In this document: positions 5,263-63,409 of the stretch, in pieces | Layout of the letters: every line of letters starts with the position of its first letter | Position numbering within the stretch: position 1 is the first letter of the stretch | Origin: an uncultured Aquimarina sp. | GTDB lineage: Bacteria; Bacteroidota; Bacteroidia; Flavobacteriales; Flavobacteriaceae | Length of the DNA: 64,000 bases | Assembly (NCBI GenBank): GCA_947498935.1 | Contig: CANMMM010000008.1 | Coordinates: 124,001 to 188,000 of the forward strand | Direction: 5' to 3' | Position numbers and translations under genes: made by a program | Notes under the pieces: model-generated | Told to the model about the DNA's origin: nothing | Database searches by the model: none | Seen by the model: only the letters and a program-made list of their open reading frames with translations

Positions 5263-5352
5263 GGGCGTTCCCCAAGGGTCGGGCTATCCGTTACAATTCC
5301 TCGCCCCTCCTAAAGGTCGGTACTGCGGGATTTCCACTGCTATCCCTAACGC
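5263..5352 (+). repeat. Family A structured intergenic repeat, copy A1 (subtype I)
   Basis: The 90-bp element begins GGGCGTTCCCCAAGGGTCGG and ends CTGCTATCCCTAACGC. Its ends can pair (GCGTT/AACGC). The core is of the CAATTCCTCGC...GGGATTTCCAC subtype. It lies in the 303-bp gap between the convergent ccsA and narK genes, 105 bp after the former. Nothing else was recognised in that gap. Confidence 0.85.
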
Positions 5353-12426: not shown

Positions 12427-12515
12427 GCGTTAGGGATAGTAGTGAAAATCCCACAGCCCGACGTTAGGGAGGTGCGAGGAATTGTAGCGGATAGCCCGAC
12501 CCTTGGGGAACGCCC
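12427..12515 (-). repeat. Family A structured intergenic repeat, copy A2 (subtype I)
   Basis: The 89-bp element is on the minus strand with both conserved ends intact (GGGCGTTCCCC... and ...CTATCCCTAACGC). It lies within the 797-bp gap between nrtA and the response regulator gene, 345 bp past the end of the latter. The remainder of this gap is AT-rich. Apart from the nrtA promoter and scattered TACGTATT-like words I see no gene in it. Confidence 0.85.
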
Positions 12516-24635: not shown

Positions 24636-24795
24636 GGGCGTTCCCCAAGGGTCGGGCTATCCGTTATATCTTTTTTGTTTTGTTTAAAAGAAGTGGTTTA
24701 CACTTTTTGTAATTGGCTATAAAAATGATCTTTTGTAATCAAAAAAGTGTAGATAACTTCTAAACAAAAAAGGATGCCACTGCTATCCCTAACGC
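24636..24795 (+). repeat. Family A repeat, copy A3 (subtype II), interrupted by family B copy B1
   Basis: Both conserved A ends are present (GGGCGTTCCCCAAGGG... and ...CTGCTATCCCTAACGC). The hairpin arms ATCTTTTTTGTTT and AAACAAAAAAGGAT are separated by a 71-bp family B element, making this copy 160 bp rather than about 87. The rest of the 643-bp gap between the divergent pfkA and LRR lipoprotein genes holds only the pfkA operator candidate. Confidence 0.85.
24690..24760 (+). repeat. Family B inverted-repeat element, copy B1 (short, nested in A3)
   Basis: It begins GAAGTGGTTTACACTTTTT, keeps the internal box GGCTATAAAAATGATCTTTTG, and ends AAAAAAGTGTAGATAACTTC. About 90 bp of the full-length core are missing. 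Terminal inverted repeats remain. Confidence 0.75.
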
Positions 24796-28380: not shown

Positions 28381-28467
28381 GCGTTAGGGATAGGAACGGC
28401 ATCCTTTTTTGTTTTCCTAAAAAAACAAAAAAGATACAGTGGATAGCCCGACCCTTGGGGAACGCCC
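28381..28467 (-). repeat. Family A structured intergenic repeat, copy A4 (subtype II)
   Basis: The 87-bp copy is on the minus strand with intact ends. The central hairpin is TATCTTTTTTGTTTT paired with AAAACAAAAAAGGAT. It lies 308 bp past the end of the maltose phosphorylase gene. Confidence 0.85.
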
Positions 28468-34239: not shown

Positions 34240-34401
34240 GAAGTGGTTTATATTTTTTTTGAGATTTGCTATAAAAACGATCTTTTGTACCCAAATTTTG
34301 TGATTTTTGAGTTTTCGAGCACTGCTATGCAACAAAAAATTACTGCATTTGGTTACTAAATCTTGCGATGTTCGCTGAAATCAAAAAGTGTAAACTACTT
34401 C
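34240..34401. repeat. Family B inverted-repeat element, copy B3 (full length)
   Basis: The 162-bp copy begins GAAGTGGTTTATA and ends AAAAAGTGTAAACTACTTC. Internal boxes GCTATAAAAACGATCTTTTG, ACCCAAATTTTGTGATTTTT and CTGCTATGCAACAAAAAA are present. It lies between convergent genes (the hypothetical lipoprotein and the lacI-type gene) without a nearby A copy. Confidence 0.85.
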
Positions 34402-41871: not shown

Positions 41872-41961
41872 GGGCGTTACCCACAAGGGGTCGGGCTATC
41901 CGTTGCAATTCCTCGCCCTCCTCACGTCGGGCTGTGGGATTTCCACTGCTATCCCTAACGC
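41872..41961 (+). repeat. Family A structured intergenic repeat, copy A5 (subtype I)
   Basis: The 90-bp copy begins GGGCGTTACCCACAAGGGGT and ends CTGCTATCCCTAACGC. The small CCC...GGG motif near the left end has gained bases on both sides (CCCACAAGGGG versus CCCCAAGGG). It lies 125 bp after susE, in a 600-bp gap that also holds B4. Confidence 0.85.
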
Positions 41962-42125: not shown

Positions 42126-42135
42126 TTTTGATATT

Positions 42136-42296
42136 GAAGTGATTTAAACTTTTTTAATTTGCTATAAAAACGATCTTTTGCACCCAAATCTTGTATTTTT
42201 TGAGTTCCGTAGTGCTGCTATGCAGCAAAAAAATTACTGCTTTTGGTCACAAAATCTTACGATGTTCGCTTAAATCGAAAAAGTCTAAACCACTTC
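42136..42296. repeat. Family B inverted-repeat element, copy B4 (full length)
   Basis: The 161-bp copy begins GAAGTGATTTAAACTTTTTT and ends AAAAAGTCTAAACCACTTC, with the boxes GCTATAAAAACGATCTTTTG and GCTGCTATGCAGCAAAAAAA. It lies 50 bp before the secreted amylase ATG, so it may be within that gene's promoter or 5' leader. The amylase frame runs open through it, which explains an over-long ORF. Confidence 0.85.
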
Positions 42297-46827: not shown

Positions 46828-46914
46828 GCGTAAAGGATAGCAGCGGCATCCTTTTTTGTTTTTTTTCTAAACAAAAAAGATATAGCGGATAGCCTGACCC
46901 GCAGGGATACGCCC
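46828..46914 (-). repeat. Family A structured intergenic repeat, copy A6 (subtype II, diverged)
   Basis: The 87-bp copy is on the minus strand. Its ends have several substitutions (GGGCGTATCCCTGCGGGTCA and GCTATCCTTTACGC). The changes TCCCTGCGGG keep the CCC/GGG pairing, and the central TTTTTTG/CAAAAAA hairpin is intact. It begins 41 bp after the lipoprotein gene. Confidence 0.82.
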
Positions 46915-46944: not shown

Positions 46945-47105
46945 GAAGTGGTTTAAACTTTTTTCAATTTGCTATAAAAACGATCTTTTGCACCCAAATT
47001 TTGTGATTTTTGAGTTCCGTAGCGCTGCTATGCAACAAAAAAATCACTTCATTTGGTCACAAAATCTTCGATTTTCGCTTAAATCAAGAAAGTTTAAACC
47101 ACTTC
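46945..47105. repeat. Family B inverted-repeat element, copy B5 (full length)
   Basis: The 161-bp copy begins GAAGTGGTTTAAACTTTTTT and ends AAAGTTTAAACCACTTC, giving 16-19 bp of near-perfect terminal inverted repeat. This is the best preserved copy. It lies 30 bp from A6 and 160 bp before the C39 exporter gene. Confidence 0.9.
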
Positions 47106-50864: not shown

Positions 50865-50953
50865 GGGCGTTCCCTAAGGGTCGGGCTTTCCGCTACAATT
50901 CCTCGCTACTCCTATGGTCGTAGCTGTGGGATTTTCACTGCAATCCCTAACGC
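50865..50953 (+). repeat. Family A structured intergenic repeat, copy A7 (subtype I, diverged)
   Basis: The 89-bp copy begins GGGCGTTCCCTAAGGGTCGG and ends CACTGCAATCCCTAACGC. The core CAATTCCTCGCTACTCC ... GGTCGTAGCTGTGGGATTTT shows changes relative to A1 and A5. It is 79 bp after the HlyD gene, between convergent genes. Confidence 0.83.
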
Positions 50954-54650: not shown

Positions 54651-54810
54651 GAAATAGTTTATACTTTTTTCAATTTGTTATAAAAACGATCTTTTGCACT
54701 AAAATTTTGCAATTTTTGAGTTTTCGAGTACTACTATCCAACCAAAAAATTACTGTATTTGATCACAAAACCTTGGTTTTTTGCAGAAATAAAAAAGTAT
54801 AAACCACTTC
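54651..54810. repeat. Family B inverted-repeat element, copy B7 (full length)
   Basis: The 160-bp copy has a decayed left end (GAAATAGTTTATACTTTTTT) and an intact right end (AAAAAGTATAAACCACTTC). Boxes TTATAAAAACGATCTTTTGC and TACTATCCAACCAAAAAA are recognisable. It is the only recognised feature in the 458-bp gap between the kinase and DUF885 genes. Confidence 0.82.
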
Positions 54811-56749: not shown

Positions 56750-58633
56750 TTATTTTAATACCTGTACTTCTATGAAAGAATCATTGAATATACTATGGGT
56801 TTGCTTTTGAAAATCTTCGGTCTTTGCTTTAAAAATATTAGGTACAAACGTCTGTGGATTACGGTCTATAAGCGGAAACCATGTACTTTGTAACTGTACT
56901 TGTAATTTATGTCCTTTTTTAAAGGTATGGTGTATATCTTGTAATTTGATGCTTACTGCTGTCTTTTTATTAGGAATAAATGGCATTGGTGTGCTAAAAT
57001 CTTCTCTAAATCGTCCCCTCATCACTTCGCTTCTTACCATCATATGATAATTAGACATTTTTAAATAAGGCTGTGTTTCTTCTGTGTCTACAGCATCTGT
57101 TGGATACACATCTACTAATTTTACCACCCAATCTGCATCACTTCCTGTAGTTGCTACATTTAGGTGCGCTAGTACTGATCCTGAGAGTGTAACATCTTCT
57201 TCTAATATTGGAGTTTCGTATACCAATACATCGGGTCTACGTGCTGCAAAACGCTGATCGTCTGTCATGTATTTTCGAGGTGTAAATACCACTTTAATAT
57301 CTTCGGAGTACGGCACTGGTTTCATCGGATCACTTACGAAATCAATAGCGCCCGAAGTTGGCGTTTCTATAAGTTTATGATCAGATAAATACCATTTTTT
57401 TTGCGCTGTTTGTGCTGGTGGCCAACTATCGAAGGTATTCCACTCTTTTTTGCCTGTATCAAAAATTCGTATTTCTGGTAATCCTGTGTTTTTAGTTCCT
57501 GATCCTTTTAGAAAATGATTAAAAAATGGCGTTTCTACATTTTTTTGAAAATCAAGTGATAGATCGTCTCCAAAATATACGTTTCCTATTGCCTGTCGCT
57601 TTTTTTTGCGTACCCAATCACCATGACTCCAAGGGCCAAAGACCATCGTATTATAATTTGTGCTATTCTTTTCTATGGCTTTATAGGTTTCAAACGGACC
57701 GTATAAATCCTCTGCATCGAACAGCCCTCCTACGACCATTACAGCGGGTTTTATATTTTTCAGGTGCTGGATGATTCCTCTTTTTTGCCAAAATGCATCG
57801 TAATTTGGGTGTTCTTTGAGCTGTGTCCAAAAAACATTATCTGCTTTATAATACGTATCTAGATTGCTTAGCGATCCTTGGTCTAAGAAAAACTGATATT
57901 GGTCTTGTGTGGGTAATTCTGGAAATTCATACCAACTCTCTGAGACGGGTTTTGTTTTTTCATAGCCAAATAATGCAGTGGCTTTCCAATAACTCAATAA
58001 ATACGCTCCATTATGATGAAAATCATCAAAGAAAAAATCGCCAATACATGCTTGTGGGGATACTGCTTTAAGTGCTGGATGCGCATCTAATAATGAATAG
58101 GTCGCATAGAAACCTGGATATGAGATGCCCCACACCCCTACTTTTCCATTATTATTAGGAACATTCGTAACTAACCACTCTATCGTATCATAGGTATCAC
58201 TAGATTCATCAAACTGTTTTCCTGATTTATTAGGAATATAAGGTCGCATATTATCATACACGCCTTCACTCATCCAGCGCCCTCGTACATCTTGATACAC
58301 AAAAATATTTCCTTCCTGCATCAAAAACTCATTAGGCCCCACCTTTACTGGAAATTGGTCTGCTCCATAAGGGCGCGAACTATAAGGGGTTCGCTGCATA
58401 ATAATAGGATAGGTTTTACTTGTATCCTTTGGGGAGTAAATAGTGGTATGCAAGTGTACCCCGTCTCTCATTTCTATAGCAATTTCTTGCTTTGTATAAT
58501 GCTTTTGTACTCTGTAATCTTGTTGGTTAGTGACATCTCCTGTATCTGTATGTAGTATTTTTTTTTCTTTCTTGATACAAGCTGTAACTACTAAAAAAAT
58601 ACTGGCAGCACTAATAAAAAGTAATCTATTCAA
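56750..58633 (-). CDS. CocE/NonD (X-Pro dipeptidyl-peptidase S15-like) hydrolase, lipoprotein
   Basis: The 627-residue protein starts at TTG 58633 with a lipoprotein signal (SIFLVVTACIKKE). The alpha/beta hydrolase domain has nucleophile Ser171 in VWGISYPGF, Asp in VGGLFDAEDLYG and His in GPWSHGDW. The C-terminal jelly roll typical of the S15/CocE/glutaryl-7-ACA acylase group follows (GSVLAHLNVATTGSDADW). It hydrolyses peptide-like or ester bonds in the envelope. The DUF885 peptidase gene follows in the same direction. Confidence 0.92.
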   Translation of the reverse strand: MNRLLFISAASIFLVVTACIKKEKKILHTDTGDVTNQQDYRVQKHYTKQEIAIEMRDGVHLHTTIYSPKDTSKTYPIIMQRTPYSSRPYGADQFPVKVGPNEFLMQEGNIFVYQDVRGRWMSEGVYDNMRPYIPNKSGKQFDESSDTYDTIEWLVTNVPNNNGKVGVWGISYPGFYATYSLLDAHPALKAVSPQACIGDFFFDDFHHNGAYLLSYWKATALFGYEKTKPVSESWYEFPELPTQDQYQFFLDQGSLSNLDTYYKADNVFWTQLKEHPNYDAFWQKRGIIQHLKNIKPAVMVVGGLFDAEDLYGPFETYKAIEKNSTNYNTMVFGPWSHGDWVRKKKRQAIGNVYFGDDLSLDFQKNVETPFFNHFLKGSGTKNTGLPEIRIFDTGKKEWNTFDSWPPAQTAQKKWYLSDHKLIETPTSGAIDFVSDPMKPVPYSEDIKVVFTPRKYMTDDQRFAARRPDVLVYETPILEEDVTLSGSVLAHLNVATTGSDADWVVKLVDVYPTDAVDTEETQPYLKMSNYHMMVRSEVMRGRFREDFSTPMPFIPNKKTAVSIKLQDIHHTFKKGHKLQVQLQSTWFPLIDRNPQTFVPNIFKAKTEDFQKQTHSIFNDSFIEVQVLK

Positions 58634-58666: not shown

Positions 58667-58826
58667 GACTTGGTTTACACTTTTTTATGTTTGCTATAAA
58701 TACGATCTTTTACACCCAAATTTTGCTTTTTTTTAGTTTTCGAGCGCTGTTATGCAGCAAAAAAACACTGTATTTGATCATAAAATCTTCACTTTTCGCT
58801 AACATCGAAAAAGTTTAAACCATTTC
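58667..58826. repeat. Family B inverted-repeat element, copy B8 (full length)
   Basis: The 160-bp copy begins GACTTGGTTTACACTTTTTT and ends AAAAAGTTTAAACCATTTC. Boxes GCTATAAATACGATCTTTTA and GCTGTTATGCAGCAAAAAAA are present. It lies 33 bp upstream of the CocE-like gene start and 173 bp from A8. Confidence 0.83.
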
Positions 58827-58999: not shown

Positions 59000-59086
59000 G
59001 CGTTAGGGATAGGAGCGGCATCCTTTTGGTAGCACCTTAGTGCTGCCAAAAGATATAGCGGATAGCCCGACCCTTGGGGAACGCCC
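59000..59086 (-). repeat. Family A structured intergenic repeat, copy A8 (subtype II with exchanged hairpin)
   Basis: The 87-bp minus-strand copy keeps the invariant ends. The central hairpin is replaced: TCTTTTGGCAGCAC pairs with GTGCTACCAAAAGG instead of TTTTTTG/CAAAAAA. Because both arms differ together while the ends stay fixed, this copy is the strongest evidence for a conserved fold. It lies 35 bp after the dsbD stop. Confidence 0.88.
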
Positions 59087-59121: not shown

Positions 59122-61107
59122 CTACTTCTTAAAATTCTGCAACCCTTTTTCTAACCAATCGATATACACTTGTTCATCGGGTGTATAGGCGATAGTGGTG
59201 TTCAGAAGATGCATTTCAGCATCTAGTAGTACATAAAATGGTTGTGAATTATTTTGGAAGTTGACCGTTTGAAAAGTTGCCCATTTATCACCTACAGTGC
59301 GAATAGATTTAACAGCACCGCTTTTTTTCAGGAACTGAAACTGTGCTTCTGTAGGTAATTGCTCGCGATCATCTACATATAGCGAGATTAACACATATTT
59401 ATTTTTAAGCAACTGCATTACTTGTGGATGGCTCCACACCTGCTCTTCCATTTTTCTGCAGTTTACACATGCCCAGCCTGTAAAATCGATCATAATCGGT
59501 TTGTTTGCGGCTTTGGCTGCTGCTACTCCTGCCTCGAAATCTGTATACGCATTCAAGCCCAGAGGCCCGTGTGCTTCTTTCTCATAAATACTATAAAATA
59601 ATGGTGGCGGGAAACCACTTAATAATTTAAGATTGGCAAATACGGTATTGCTCAATCCCGGAAGCAGGTAGATCACAAATGCGATCGTAAGAATCCCTAA
59701 GCCTTGCCTACTTTTGCTCAATTTCTGAAGCGGGCTATCGTGTGGGAACTTGATTTTACCGAATAAATACAATGCCAGTCCGATACCGATGAAAATCCAG
59801 ATACCGATAAAAATTTCTCTTTTTAAGAATCCCCAATGTGCTACTAAATCTGCATTGGACAGGAATTTAAACGCGAGTGCGAGTTCTATAAATCCTAGTA
59901 CTACTTTTACTGCATTGAGCCATCCCCCACTTTTAGGTAATGAGTTGAGCCAATTCGGAAACAGCGCAAATAACCCAAATGGCAGCGCTAGGGCTAATCC
60001 AAATCCTCCCATACCAAAACTCAGTTGCATCGCTCCTCCATTACTACTTAAAGACCCTCCTAGAAGCGATCCTAAAATGGGGCCTGTGCATGAAAAAGAA
60101 ACCAATGCTAGTGTTAACGCCATAAAGAATACGCCTACTATTCCTCCTACACTCGTAGCCTTGCTATCCATTTTTGTACTCCAAGAGGCAGGTAATGTGA
60201 TCTCGAAATACCCAAAAAAGGAAATCGCAAAAACAATAAAAATCACAAAGAATACCACATTGAGCACTACATTGGTAGAAATGGTATTTAAAATCTCTGG
60301 ATCTAAGGAATCTAGTAAATGAAATGGTAAACTGAGTAGAATATAAATGGTAAAGATAAAGAACCCATACAATAATGCATTGACAAGTCCTTTTTGTCTA
60401 TTCTTAGCTCCTTTGGTAAAAAAAGATACGGTAAGCGGAATCATAGGGAATACGCATGGGGTTAACAATGCGATCAATCCTCCTAGGAATCCTAGTATAA
60501 AAATCTTTATATAACTCTGATCCTTTACGGTTTCTTTAGGGAATTGCTCCCATCCTTTAATCCCCGCATTAAGCGCTTGGGATTGTTGTGTATCTGTACC
60601 TGTTAGCTTGGTGGCATCTCCTATATCTTCTGTAACCTGCCCTGATAGCGCTATGTCAAATGTGGTGATATCTGGTGCTAAGCATTTTTCATCATCGCAG
60701 AGTCCGTAATACACCTCAGCTTTAATGGTACTCACGGAAGGATCTAGTCGTTTGATTTGCTGTGTGAATGTTACTTTTTCTTCGAAGTATTTGATCTCCA
60801 TCTCAAACACTTTATCATATTTCTGAATACCGTCAGGTTCTGTCGTAGCTCCGATGAGTTCAAAAGCTTTGGCTTCATTATAGAATGTAAACTCTGTGGC
60901 TGTAGGTGCTATTTCTTCGGTTTCTACCTCTTGCTGCGAATACAAGTGCCACCCTTTTTCTAAAGTAGCTTCAAAAGACAAGGTATATGCATCGGTCGCT
61001 GTTTCCTGTACCGCTACCTTCCATTGTATAGGATTGAATTCTTGTCCGAATGTGGTTATAGCAACTAATAGTGCTATTAGTATCAAAATACGCTTCTTCT
61101 GCTTCAT
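59122..61107 (-). CDS. dsbD: DsbD-type thiol:disulfide interchange protein
   Basis: The 661-residue protein has an N-terminal signal (IALLVAITTFG) and a DsbD-alpha-like domain with Cys pair in YGLCDDEKCLAP. A membrane core of about eight helices contains TPCVFPMIPLTV and SFSCTGPILGSLLGG, each with one redox Cys. A C-terminal thioredoxin domain with WACVNCRKME completes the relay. It carries reducing power from cytoplasmic thioredoxin to the periplasm, for example to c-type cytochrome assembly. ATG 61107 overlaps the tilS stop by one base, so the genes are coupled. Confidence 0.95.
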   Translation of the reverse strand: MKQKKRILILIALLVAITTFGQEFNPIQWKVAVQETATDAYTLSFEATLEKGWHLYSQQEVETEEIAPTATEFTFYNEAKAFELIGATTEPDGIQKYDKVFEMEIKYFEEKVTFTQQIKRLDPSVSTIKAEVYYGLCDDEKCLAPDITTFDIALSGQVTEDIGDATKLTGTDTQQSQALNAGIKGWEQFPKETVKDQSYIKIFILGFLGGLIALLTPCVFPMIPLTVSFFTKGAKNRQKGLVNALLYGFFIFTIYILLSLPFHLLDSLDPEILNTISTNVVLNVVFFVIFIVFAISFFGYFEITLPASWSTKMDSKATSVGGIVGVFFMALTLALVSFSCTGPILGSLLGGSLSSNGGAMQLSFGMGGFGLALALPFGLFALFPNWLNSLPKSGGWLNAVKVVLGFIELALAFKFLSNADLVAHWGFLKREIFIGIWIFIGIGLALYLFGKIKFPHDSPLQKLSKSRQGLGILTIAFVIYLLPGLSNTVFANLKLLSGFPPPLFYSIYEKEAHGPLGLNAYTDFEAGVAAAKAANKPIMIDFTGWACVNCRKMEEQVWSHPQVMQLLKNKYVLISLYVDDREQLPTEAQFQFLKKSGAVKSIRTVGDKWATFQTVNFQNNSQPFYVLLDAEMHLLNTTIAYTPDEQVYIDWLEKGLQNFKK

Positions 61108-62420
61108 CAAGTAATCGTTACTTTTAATAGTTGTTTTGTTCTAGGGGTAATTCTAAATCTATGGTCTGCTCTATAATTGATCACCCATACGATCGCATCA
61201 CCTGCGCATAATACCCAAACGCGTTCTTTGGCTAGTAATGACAGCTTTTCATCTTTAAAAAATTTACTCAGCTTCTTTTTTCCATGCATCCCCAGCGGGT
61301 AAAAATAGTCGCCTTCTTTCCATTTTCTTACTACCAATGGATATTTTAACTTTTCTTTATCAACATAAATAGTCGTTAGGTTTTTGTCTCCCAATTGCTT
61401 TACAGCTTTTAATTTTAAAACGCCAAAAGGCACTAAGATCGTATCCTCGCCCTCTGGTAAGCTGTATGTACGATCATCTACTTTGGGTTTTAATGGACTG
61501 AGTAGTAAATCCGTTCTATCTTTTAGCAATCGGTGCGTAGCCGAAAATACTTGCTTTCCAGACTGTGCTTCTAATAACTGATACACATCATTCCAAGCAG
61601 TAAACCCATACTCTTTTAACAGAAAATAAAGATAGGTTTTTGGGTTTTGATACTGTATTAGTTTAGGAATTGGAATTTTAATAATGTCTAATTCCTGAAA
61701 TTCAAACAACTCATCCCGTACACGTGCTACCTGATCTTGCACAAAGAGATTGACCTGTTTTACATGTGTTAAAGTAGTTTCAAAATTTTGTAAAAAACTA
61801 GGTGTGATGGTTTTTAACACTGGAATGACCTCGTGCCGCAACTTATTCCGCAGATACTTCGTACTTTTATTACTACTATCTTCTCTCCACTGGATGCCAT
61901 GATCCTCTGCATAACTGCGTATTTGTGCTCTAGAAAAAGGTAATAATGGGCGTATATACGTAGCATTTACCTCTGGGATCCCTGCTAATCCTTCGATACC
62001 AGTACCCCTAGAAACATTGATCAAAAATGTCTCTAGATTATCATCGCTATGATGTGCTGTTAGTACATAATCATATCCATGTGTATGCACTACTTCCTGA
62101 AACCAATCATAGCGCAAGGCTCTGGCTGCCATCTGTATCGATACTTTTTCTGCAGCAGCATAGGCAGCTGTATCCATATGTTTTGTATGTATCGCACAAC
62201 CTAATTGGATAGCCAATTCAGTAACGAACGCTTCATCGCCATCACTTTCTGCTGCTCGTAGATTAAAATTACAATGTGCCAATCCTATAGATACATCTAA
62301 CTTGTGGCATAGTCTACTTAATACCACACTATCCAATCCACCACTACAGGCTATCAGTAATTTTCCGCGTTTCAAGAATGCGAATTGTTGTTCAATGTGT
62401 GTTTTAAATGCTGCAAACAC
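61107..62420 (-). CDS. tilS: tRNA(Ile)-lysidine synthetase
   Basis: The enzyme modifies the wobble C of tRNA-Ile2 (anticodon CAU) with lysine. The PP-loop is ACSGGLDSVVLS, followed by LAHCNFNLR and TAHHSDDNLETFLINVSRG, and the C-terminal TilS domain contains KWKEGDYFYPLGMHGKKKLSKFF-type residues. GTG 62420 is chosen as start: it puts FKTHIEQQFAFL at the N-terminus as usual for the family, while the frame continues upstream to ATG 62498 without family-like sequence. dsbD follows directly. Confidence 0.94.
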   Translation of the reverse strand: MFAAFKTHIEQQFAFLKRGKLLIACSGGLDSVVLSRLCHKLDVSIGLAHCNFNLRAAESDGDEAFVTELAIQLGCAIHTKHMDTAAYAAAEKVSIQMAARALRYDWFQEVVHTHGYDYVLTAHHSDDNLETFLINVSRGTGIEGLAGIPEVNATYIRPLLPFSRAQIRSYAEDHGIQWREDSSNKSTKYLRNKLRHEVIPVLKTITPSFLQNFETTLTHVKQVNLFVQDQVARVRDELFEFQELDIIKIPIPKLIQYQNPKTYLYFLLKEYGFTAWNDVYQLLEAQSGKQVFSATHRLLKDRTDLLLSPLKPKVDDRTYSLPEGEDTILVPFGVLKLKAVKQLGDKNLTTIYVDKEKLKYPLVVRKWKEGDYFYPLGMHGKKKLSKFFKDEKLSLLAKERVWVLCAGDAIVWVINYRADHRFRITPRTKQLLKVTIT

Positions 62421-63322: not shown

Positions 63323-63409
63323 GGGCGTTACCCAAGGGTCGGGCTATCCACTATATCTTTTTTGGTTTTTCAGAAAACCAAAAAAGGATGCCGCTGCTAT
63401 CCCTAACGC
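63323..63409 (+). repeat. Family A structured intergenic repeat, copy A9 (subtype II)
   Basis: The 87-bp copy begins GGGCGTTACCCAAGGGTCGG and ends CTGCTATCCCTAACGC. The hairpin TCTTTTTTGGTTTT pairs with AAAACCAAAAAAGGA, again with both arms altered together relative to A4. It lies 40 bp after the sigma-like gene and abuts the palindrome at 63411-63465. Confidence 0.88.

Follow-up and report, generated by a model that had tools for sequence, protein, structure and literature searches.

The element studied here, at 59000..59086 of a 64,000-nucleotide stretch of an uncultured Aquimarina genome (hereafter the window), lies on the minus strand between ORFs at 56750-58633 and 59122-61110. Its hairpin is TTTTGGCAGCAC/GTGCTACCAAAA, with one C.A on the element's own strand that reads as G.U on the strand used by Rfam. 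It is one of nine copies of a dispersed repeat, spaced at one per 7 kb, that an initial annotation had called family A, and the places and orientations given there all proved correct. Four copies belong to subtype I (5263..5352, plus; 12427..12515, minus; 41872..41961, plus; 50865..50953, plus). The other five belong to subtype II (24636..24795, plus; 28381..28467, minus; 46828..46914, minus; 59000..59086, minus; 63323..63409, plus). Strands follow the initial annotation; the Rfam strand is the opposite one.

The ends described for the family, GGGCGTT and CTAACGC, hold in eight of the nine copies. At 46828 they are GGGCGTA and TTTACGC, and these two changes pair with each other. The outer stem of the copy at 50865..50953 likewise carries an A-T to T-A change (GGGCTTTCC/CAATCCC). 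A repeat finder recovered all nine copies, as did a profile built from copies of this genome, which returned the one at 24636 in two pieces because approximately 75 nt of another repeat (D2 repeat, 24687-24743) interrupts its hairpin loop. A pattern requiring both ends and a middle of 20-49 bases matched one place, the usual middle being longer.

The interrupting repeat is related to a second dispersed family of approximately 170 nt with inverted ends, GAAGTGGTTTAAACTTTTT...AAAAAGTTTAAACCACTTC, which is MITE-like. In the window its copies lie at 34242-34387, 42135-42280, 46945-47090, 54651-54796 and 58667-58812, with the related piece at 24687-24743. Some copies are near Flavo-1 copies (see below), one short form sits inside the copy at 24636, and more copies occur elsewhere in this genome and in the genus.

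Identity and fold of the element

The repeat is a form of Flavo-1 (RF01705) that carries additional outer arms and whose inner domain comes in two interchangeable versions. Five of the nine window copies, all of subtype II, reach the Rfam gathering cut-off of 42 bits with 53-65 bits: 24636 (53.2 bits, minus strand), 28381 (60.6, plus), 46828 (65, plus), 59000 (57.8, plus) and 63323 (61.1, minus). All five match on the strand opposite to that of the initial annotation. None of the four subtype I copies reaches the cut-off; the one at 5263 scores 39 bits on the minus strand (E 5.5e-7) and the one at 12427 is also below gathering. A covariance model, R1, comprises 21 Flavo-1 sequences, three of them window copies and none of subtype I. 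R1 recovers all nine window copies, the four of subtype I at 35-41 bits (39.8 at 5263, 35.4 at 12427, 40.7 at 41872 and 40.6 at 50865). Subtype I copies are related to Flavo-1 and lie outside its curated cut-off.

On the Rfam strand, a GCGTT/AACGC outer stem is followed by an inner stem with mismatches, an asymmetric loop and then the inner domain, which is an A/T-rich hairpin in subtype II and a shorter, G/C-containing domain in subtype I. A small CCC/GGG hairpin precedes the closing strand of the element. The outer stem, AGCGG internal loop, CATCC bulge and variable inner hairpin of the published Flavo-1 motif are all shared by the window copies. They differ from it in the added outer arms (GCGTT/AACGC and the CCC/GGG hairpin), which are absent from the 76-position model, and in the G/C-containing domain that takes the place of the A/T-rich hairpin in the lower-scoring subtype I. 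Within the inner stem, an A.G and a G.A mismatch flank two pairs, and both are invariant in 35/35 subtype II and 33/33 subtype I rows.

The consensus fold of the family is accompanied by covariation, as the initial annotation had proposed from the central hairpin of a few copies. In the subtype II alignment A1 (35 of the 41 length-filtered copies), 99.9% of cells are paired and 10 of 23 pairs show double changes; no shuffle of 500 scored as high on any measure. The signal is weaker in the subtype I alignment A2 (33 of 35 copies), with 99.7% of cells paired and double changes in 3 of 21 pairs; 2/500 shuffles gave an equal number of double-change pairs and 7/500 an equal number of pair types. 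The copies left out of A1 and A2 were dropped by hand and were mostly longer ones. Covariation is thus far above chance in subtype II.

Once further sampled copies had been added, the alignments comprised 55 and 59 rows, in which 13 and 30 minor cells are not Watson-Crick. Read on the Rfam strand, and excluding the fixed T.G pair at columns 5/72, G.U outnumbers A.C by 21 to 5 among these cells (p 0.0025, from cells that are few, related and not independent), which suggests that folding takes place on the Rfam strand. The median identity among the copies of this genome is 88% and 90%. Since the copies differ to this extent and yet stay paired, the fold has been kept while the sequences drifted. 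The selection on a folded DNA or RNA that was initially postulated is accordingly supported, as selection on a folded strand or during its copying. Correction between the arms of a palindrome was considered as the origin of the covariation and is disfavoured by the invariant mismatches that stand between covarying pairs.

Copy number, placement and flanks

Orthologues of a gene in the window assign the genome to Aquimarina. In 857,834 bases of this genome we counted 100 elements, one per 8.6 kb, comprising 61 of subtype I and 39 of subtype II; 98 are near full length. A 13-base core, GTCGGGCTATCCG, occurs 335 times in the whole genome (163 and 172 by strand) and 0-3 times in each of 65 other Aquimarina genomes, with a reversed-pattern control giving 0. 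As 62 of 93 sampled elements carry the core, the genome holds an estimated 500 copies, and the density of elements gives approximately 556. Flavo-1 itself is present in 65 of 66 Aquimarina genomes, with at most 15 scored matches per genome except in this one (all 60 scored places filled, and at least 150 in another scan) and in G062 (35); these counts, with up to 60 places scored per genome in the genus and up to 22 in the order, were made with stricter filters. The several hundred copies here, against a handful in congeners, constitute a lineage-specific amplification and answer the call for a genome-wide count. Across a sample of the order, 58 of 196 genomes contain Flavo-1. At least 22 matches were found in 29 of these 58, including 16 of the 17 genomes of one genus (g17).

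The same contrast is seen at individual regions. No match to our own-copy profile or to R1 was found in 18 congeneric 20-kb regions, where approximately 40 would be expected at the density of this genome. Two of the nine window sites could be compared with related loci that contain both flanking genes (43 loci for one site and 38 for the other, with some contigs counted twice and not all from Aquimarina). The flanking-gene matches lie less than approximately 1.1 kb apart in 21/43 and less than approximately 0.5 kb apart in 31/38 of them. None of these loci, nor any of the 48 related loci searched, has an own-profile match. The exact insertion junctions are unreadable because the relatives are only roughly 75-80% identical. 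Two hallmarks of a mobile element are present here: a lineage-specific copy number and sites that are empty in relatives, the latter for two of the nine window sites.

Placement was examined in the 100 elements, 98 of which were classed by orientation and 93 used for flanks. All but two of the 100 lie outside ORFs of at least 100 aa, which cover 82% of the sequence. In the window, where all copies had been described as lying between genes, this is true of eight; the copy at 28381 overlaps a mechanical 168-aa ORF. The agreement in orientation with the upstream gene, seen in seven of the nine window copies, does not extend to a significant bias in the larger sample: between co-directional genes, 32 elements are sense and 19 antisense on the initially annotated strand (p = 0.09). 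Gaps with at least one gene 3' end hold 80 of the 98 classed elements. Convergent gaps are enriched (29/98 elements against 53/311 gaps, p 0.009), and divergent gaps hold 18/98.

There is no excess of target-site duplications: 86 of the 93 elements have none, and shuffling predicts 88.6. The flanks are biased, being T-rich on the 5' side and, for about nine bases, A-rich on the 3' side. The first base after CTAACGC is A or G in 93/93 and never C or T. On the 5' side, positions -3, -6, -9, -12, -15 and -18 have an excess of T and a deficit of A, a weak 3-base periodicity for which we have no explanation. The upstream frame that enters the element at base -1 is open for at least 15 codons in 39/93, compared with 11 and 18 in the other frames. 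A translated element was not adopted as a reading despite the fewer upstream stops, since many of these frames have no start codon and their end points vary. A joined-flank search with the 93 elements in 858 kb found no paralogous empty site. No autonomous copy turned up either, in a non-exhaustive search for separate ends that covered 458 kb. At one locus (L036, 4880-4960 and 6250-6330) a duplicated stretch follows a full element and then, 1.4 kb further on, a right end only, which is probably a tandem duplication of the neighbouring genes.

Copies after thiC

Among 20 loci fetched from high-scoring Flavo-1 matches in other Aquimarina, eight have the element in the gap directly after thiC. 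In seven of these a TPP riboswitch lies upstream of thiC, and the eighth is cut by a contig end. With cmscan, Flavo-1 follows thiC in 8 of 49 Aquimarina genomes, a biased rate because the eight genomes had been chosen for good Flavo-1 matches; a quick text rule misses one of them (G039). The same scan gave no gathering-level Flavo-1 after thiC in 40 further Aquimarina genomes or in our own. By eye, G019 appears to have a diverged copy below the gathering score. In our genome the genes at the gap encode ThiC and a TMP-TENI family protein, assigned by NCBIfam and Pfam, respectively, with scores above cut-off. The second is thiE-like but falls below the NCBIfam thiE cut-off, and the gap between the two genes holds a different near-perfect hairpin.

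Double changes in the eight copies affect outer pairs 10/84, 14/80 and 18/76 as well as several inner ones, and 2/150 lettered cells are mismatched. Such compensation in place suggests a host function at this site, for which a purely selfish element would have no need. Gaps after thiC that lack Flavo-1 also tend to contain hairpins, unrelated to it: 19 of 30 have a hairpin z of -3 or lower, against 27 of 80 control co-directional gaps (one-sided Mann-Whitney p 0.0002; z derives from simple base shuffles and the genomes are not independent). Scoring covered 37 of the 49 thi gaps, those of 35-250 nt; the 12 skipped include the Flavo-1-bearing G072. These results suggest that a hairpin is frequently maintained after thiC and that Flavo-1 is one of its sources. 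Many of the gaps between thiC and the thiE-like gene that lack Flavo-1 (e.g. L249, L253 and L269) have hairpins of CCTGATACC/GGTATCAGG-like units, possibly a further repeat family.

The thiC gap is an argument for a cis-acting mRNA hairpin that is selected in place and would form when transcription runs through a gene end, either blocking exonucleases or tuning read-through or downstream operon expression. Compensation in eight genomes and the hairpins of the remaining gaps both fit such a role, as do the prevalence of gaps with a gene 3' end and the convergent enrichment described above. As a general account of Flavo-1 it nevertheless appears unlikely. The orientation bias is not significant, the strand favoured by the wobble pairs is antisense to the thi genes, and the contrast between several hundred copies in this species and a few in its relatives is left unexplained. 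Even among thi gaps, z of -3 is reached in only 3 of the 7 scored that carry Flavo-1, and 15 of all 37 scored fall short of it. In Flavobacterium psychrophilum, Flavo-1 matches are described as sense or antisense to transcripts, with many outside transcribed regions, and in the passage concerned they gave no real clue to function (PMC9723704). The 3'-end processing or mRNA protection proposed at the outset is thereby weakened as a general role by the missing orientation bias, while remaining plausible for individual sites, the thiC gap among them.

Mobilisation and comparison with known elements

The initial annotation had likened the family to REP elements moved by a RAYT-type enzyme. The REP-like behaviour is borne out, in that the copies are dispersed, intergenic and lineage-specific in number. 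Physical linkage to a RAYT, on the other hand, was not found. Our genome encodes one intact RAYT (NF047646, 91.9 bits against a cut-off of 80; L002 1225-1809, C11), which is flanked on both sides by ACTAGC/GCTAGT hairpins unlike Flavo-1 in sequence, a candidate for a separate REP-like system. Its 3.2-kb locus contains no Flavo-1, and the nearest copies are approximately 2.7 and 5.3 kb away. In 20 fetched RAYT-type loci (14 of which have ORFs with the expected motifs, 15 ORFs in all) there was no Flavo-1 within 1.6 kb of the gene and one copy at 1.7 kb. Of 20 IS200-type loci, three have R1 matches, at 0.15 (weak), 1.0 and 1.9 kb from the gene, so that only one, weak, match lies within 0.5 kb. 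The weak match (L286 2508-2650; 30.9 bits, 145 nt from an IS200-type transposase ORF) is a partial Flavo-1-like outer fold whose inner hairpin is unmatched.

At the level of whole genomes the picture is different. Among the 196 genomes of the order, 47 have both Y1_Tnp and Flavo-1, 11 Flavo-1 only, 14 Y1_Tnp only and 124 neither; Y1_Tnp thus occurs in 47/58 genomes with Flavo-1 and 14/138 without (odds ratio 38, uncorrected for shared ancestry). Where at least 22 Flavo-1 matches are present, Y1_Tnp was found in 25/29 genomes, those without a match being G129, G161, G208 and G218. The Y1_Tnp count of our genome is 2, one of them broken, a usual number for the genus. Mobilisation as a REP-type element, by a RAYT (TnpA_REP) or another resident Y1 transposase, would be consistent with structured intergenic repeats of patchy copy number that lack target-site duplications, with the presence of a resident RAYT, with the co-occurrence, and with the single weak neighbour of an IS200-type gene. 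Bacteroidetes TnpA_REP genes of subclass 2.6 are moreover described, in the part of the study that concerns them, as flanked by atypical structures (PMC6006769). We regard this explanation as quite improbable given the different hairpins beside the resident RAYT, the sparse linkage at both types of loci, the four copy-rich genomes with no Y1_Tnp match and the ordinary count in our own. The linkage data do not support RAYT as the mobiliser; the genome-level co-occurrence still speaks for some Y1 enzyme, possibly acting in trans. No mobiliser was identified among the genes tested, none of which is physically linked to Flavo-1.

Carriage by phage was also considered and set aside, as neither the window element nor a Flavo-1 element of another genus matched any phage. 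With the latter as query, four Paraclostridium bifermentans plasmids (H1-H4) gave partial matches of approximately 60 bases at 80-82% identity, which possibly reflect only an A/T-rich palindrome or hairpin.

Two further explanations concern RNA. Retro-copying would have a reverse transcriptase insert an RNA copy, in the manner of a bacterial SINE, with the A-rich bases after CTAACGC as its tail. The A-rich nine bases, the absence of C or T at the first of them and the lack of target-site duplications agree with this, but the T-rich 5' flank mirrors the A-richness, so that this A-richness may be site choice or part of the element, and the wobble pairs favour the opposite strand; we consider it very improbable. 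Flavobacterial promoters are marked by a -7 box with the motif TAnnTTTG. A family of trans-acting small RNA genes, as the Rfam type 'Gene; sRNA' and the conserved fold would have it, is hardly credible given several hundred intergenic copies in one genome, no -7 box at a fixed upstream place (flank table, by eye) and, as far as the relevant passage goes, no consistent transcript in the F. psychrophilum transcriptome (PMC9723704).

On balance, it seems probable that Flavo-1 is a structure-dependent, non-autonomous mobile repeat, some copies of which have been adopted as intercistronic hairpins. The Rfam strand (GCGTTAGGG...AACGCCC) would fold and be recognised as a single-stranded nucleic acid by an enzyme acting in trans. 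If onward copying were restricted to copies that fold, the fold would be kept while the sequences drift. Single-stranded DNA would most likely be the mobile form, with an HUH-type nuclease or one like it acting on it. At some sites, of which the gap after thiC is the best example, the host may retain the inserted hairpin as an mRNA element between cistrons. A mobile repeat of this kind would explain the burst in copy number, the intact ends, the intergenic scatter without a clear orientation rule and the preserved fold, and adoption as an intercistronic hairpin would explain the copies after thiC. In its favour are the near-complete copies with fixed ends, the lack of target-site duplications and the strictly kept fold; for an HUH-type enzyme it is the Y1_Tnp co-occurrence, confounded by relatedness. 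Against it stand the absence of a mobiliser, an autonomous copy or a paralogous empty site from the sequence searched, the wobble asymmetry that comes from few related cells with five A.C cells opposing it, and the periodicity of the 5' flank.

Weinberg et al. (PMC2864571) described Flavo-1 in 2010 as a candidate structured RNA from Bacteroidetes, and RF01705 is a candidate sRNA with no assigned function. It is also mentioned by a 2022 review, in the section devoted to the most abundant sRNAs, where no function is given (PMC9029176). The passages of these and of the F. psychrophilum study (PMC9723704) that deal with it present a candidate non-coding RNA, not a mobile repeat, and no paper treating it as a mobile repeat appeared in the literature searched, which comprised titles, the beginnings of abstracts and some passages. 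Its status as a candidate sRNA was already known; the approximately 500-560 copies in one Aquimarina genome are new. We tentatively put forward a wider proposal, which could well prove wrong: Flavo-1 may be a distinct class of bacterial mobile repeat rather than an RNA gene family, one that spreads by a strand-specific fold around two invariant A.G/G.A mismatches with an enzyme in trans, that can multiply within one genus from a few copies to hundreds, and that supplies interchangeable hairpins which hosts adopt between the genes of operons, for example after thiC. A 'small RNA' family that is widely counted may then be a mobile DNA element and, if so, the sRNA inventories of Bacteroidota need correcting. 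Some 500 drifting yet folding copies also amount to a natural mutational scan of a recognised structure, and the contrast between one Aquimarina and 65 congeners makes a search for the mobiliser practical.

Several known classes of element resemble Flavo-1 in part. REP and REPIN elements with their RAYTs are likewise short, structured, intergenic and dispersed, have a species-specific copy number without target-site duplications, and show the genome-level association with Y1_Tnp. A REP is defined, in the passage cited, as a 20-40 bp palindrome tagged with GTAG (or CGTC) at one end (PMC3733652). Flavo-1 elements are mostly 87-92 nt, end in GGGCGTT and CTAACGC with no such tag, and have neither local RAYT linkage nor a cognate RAYT flanked by the repeat. 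With MITEs they share small size, non-autonomy and high copy number, but their terminal pairing extends over only about five bases (GCGTT/AACGC) in place of terminal inverted repeats, target-site duplications are lacking, and the fold is internal and compensatory. Finally, the copies after thiC resemble intercistronic mRNA stabiliser hairpins in occupying the gap of a co-directional gene pair, whereas most Flavo-1 copies of our genome are differently placed or oriented.
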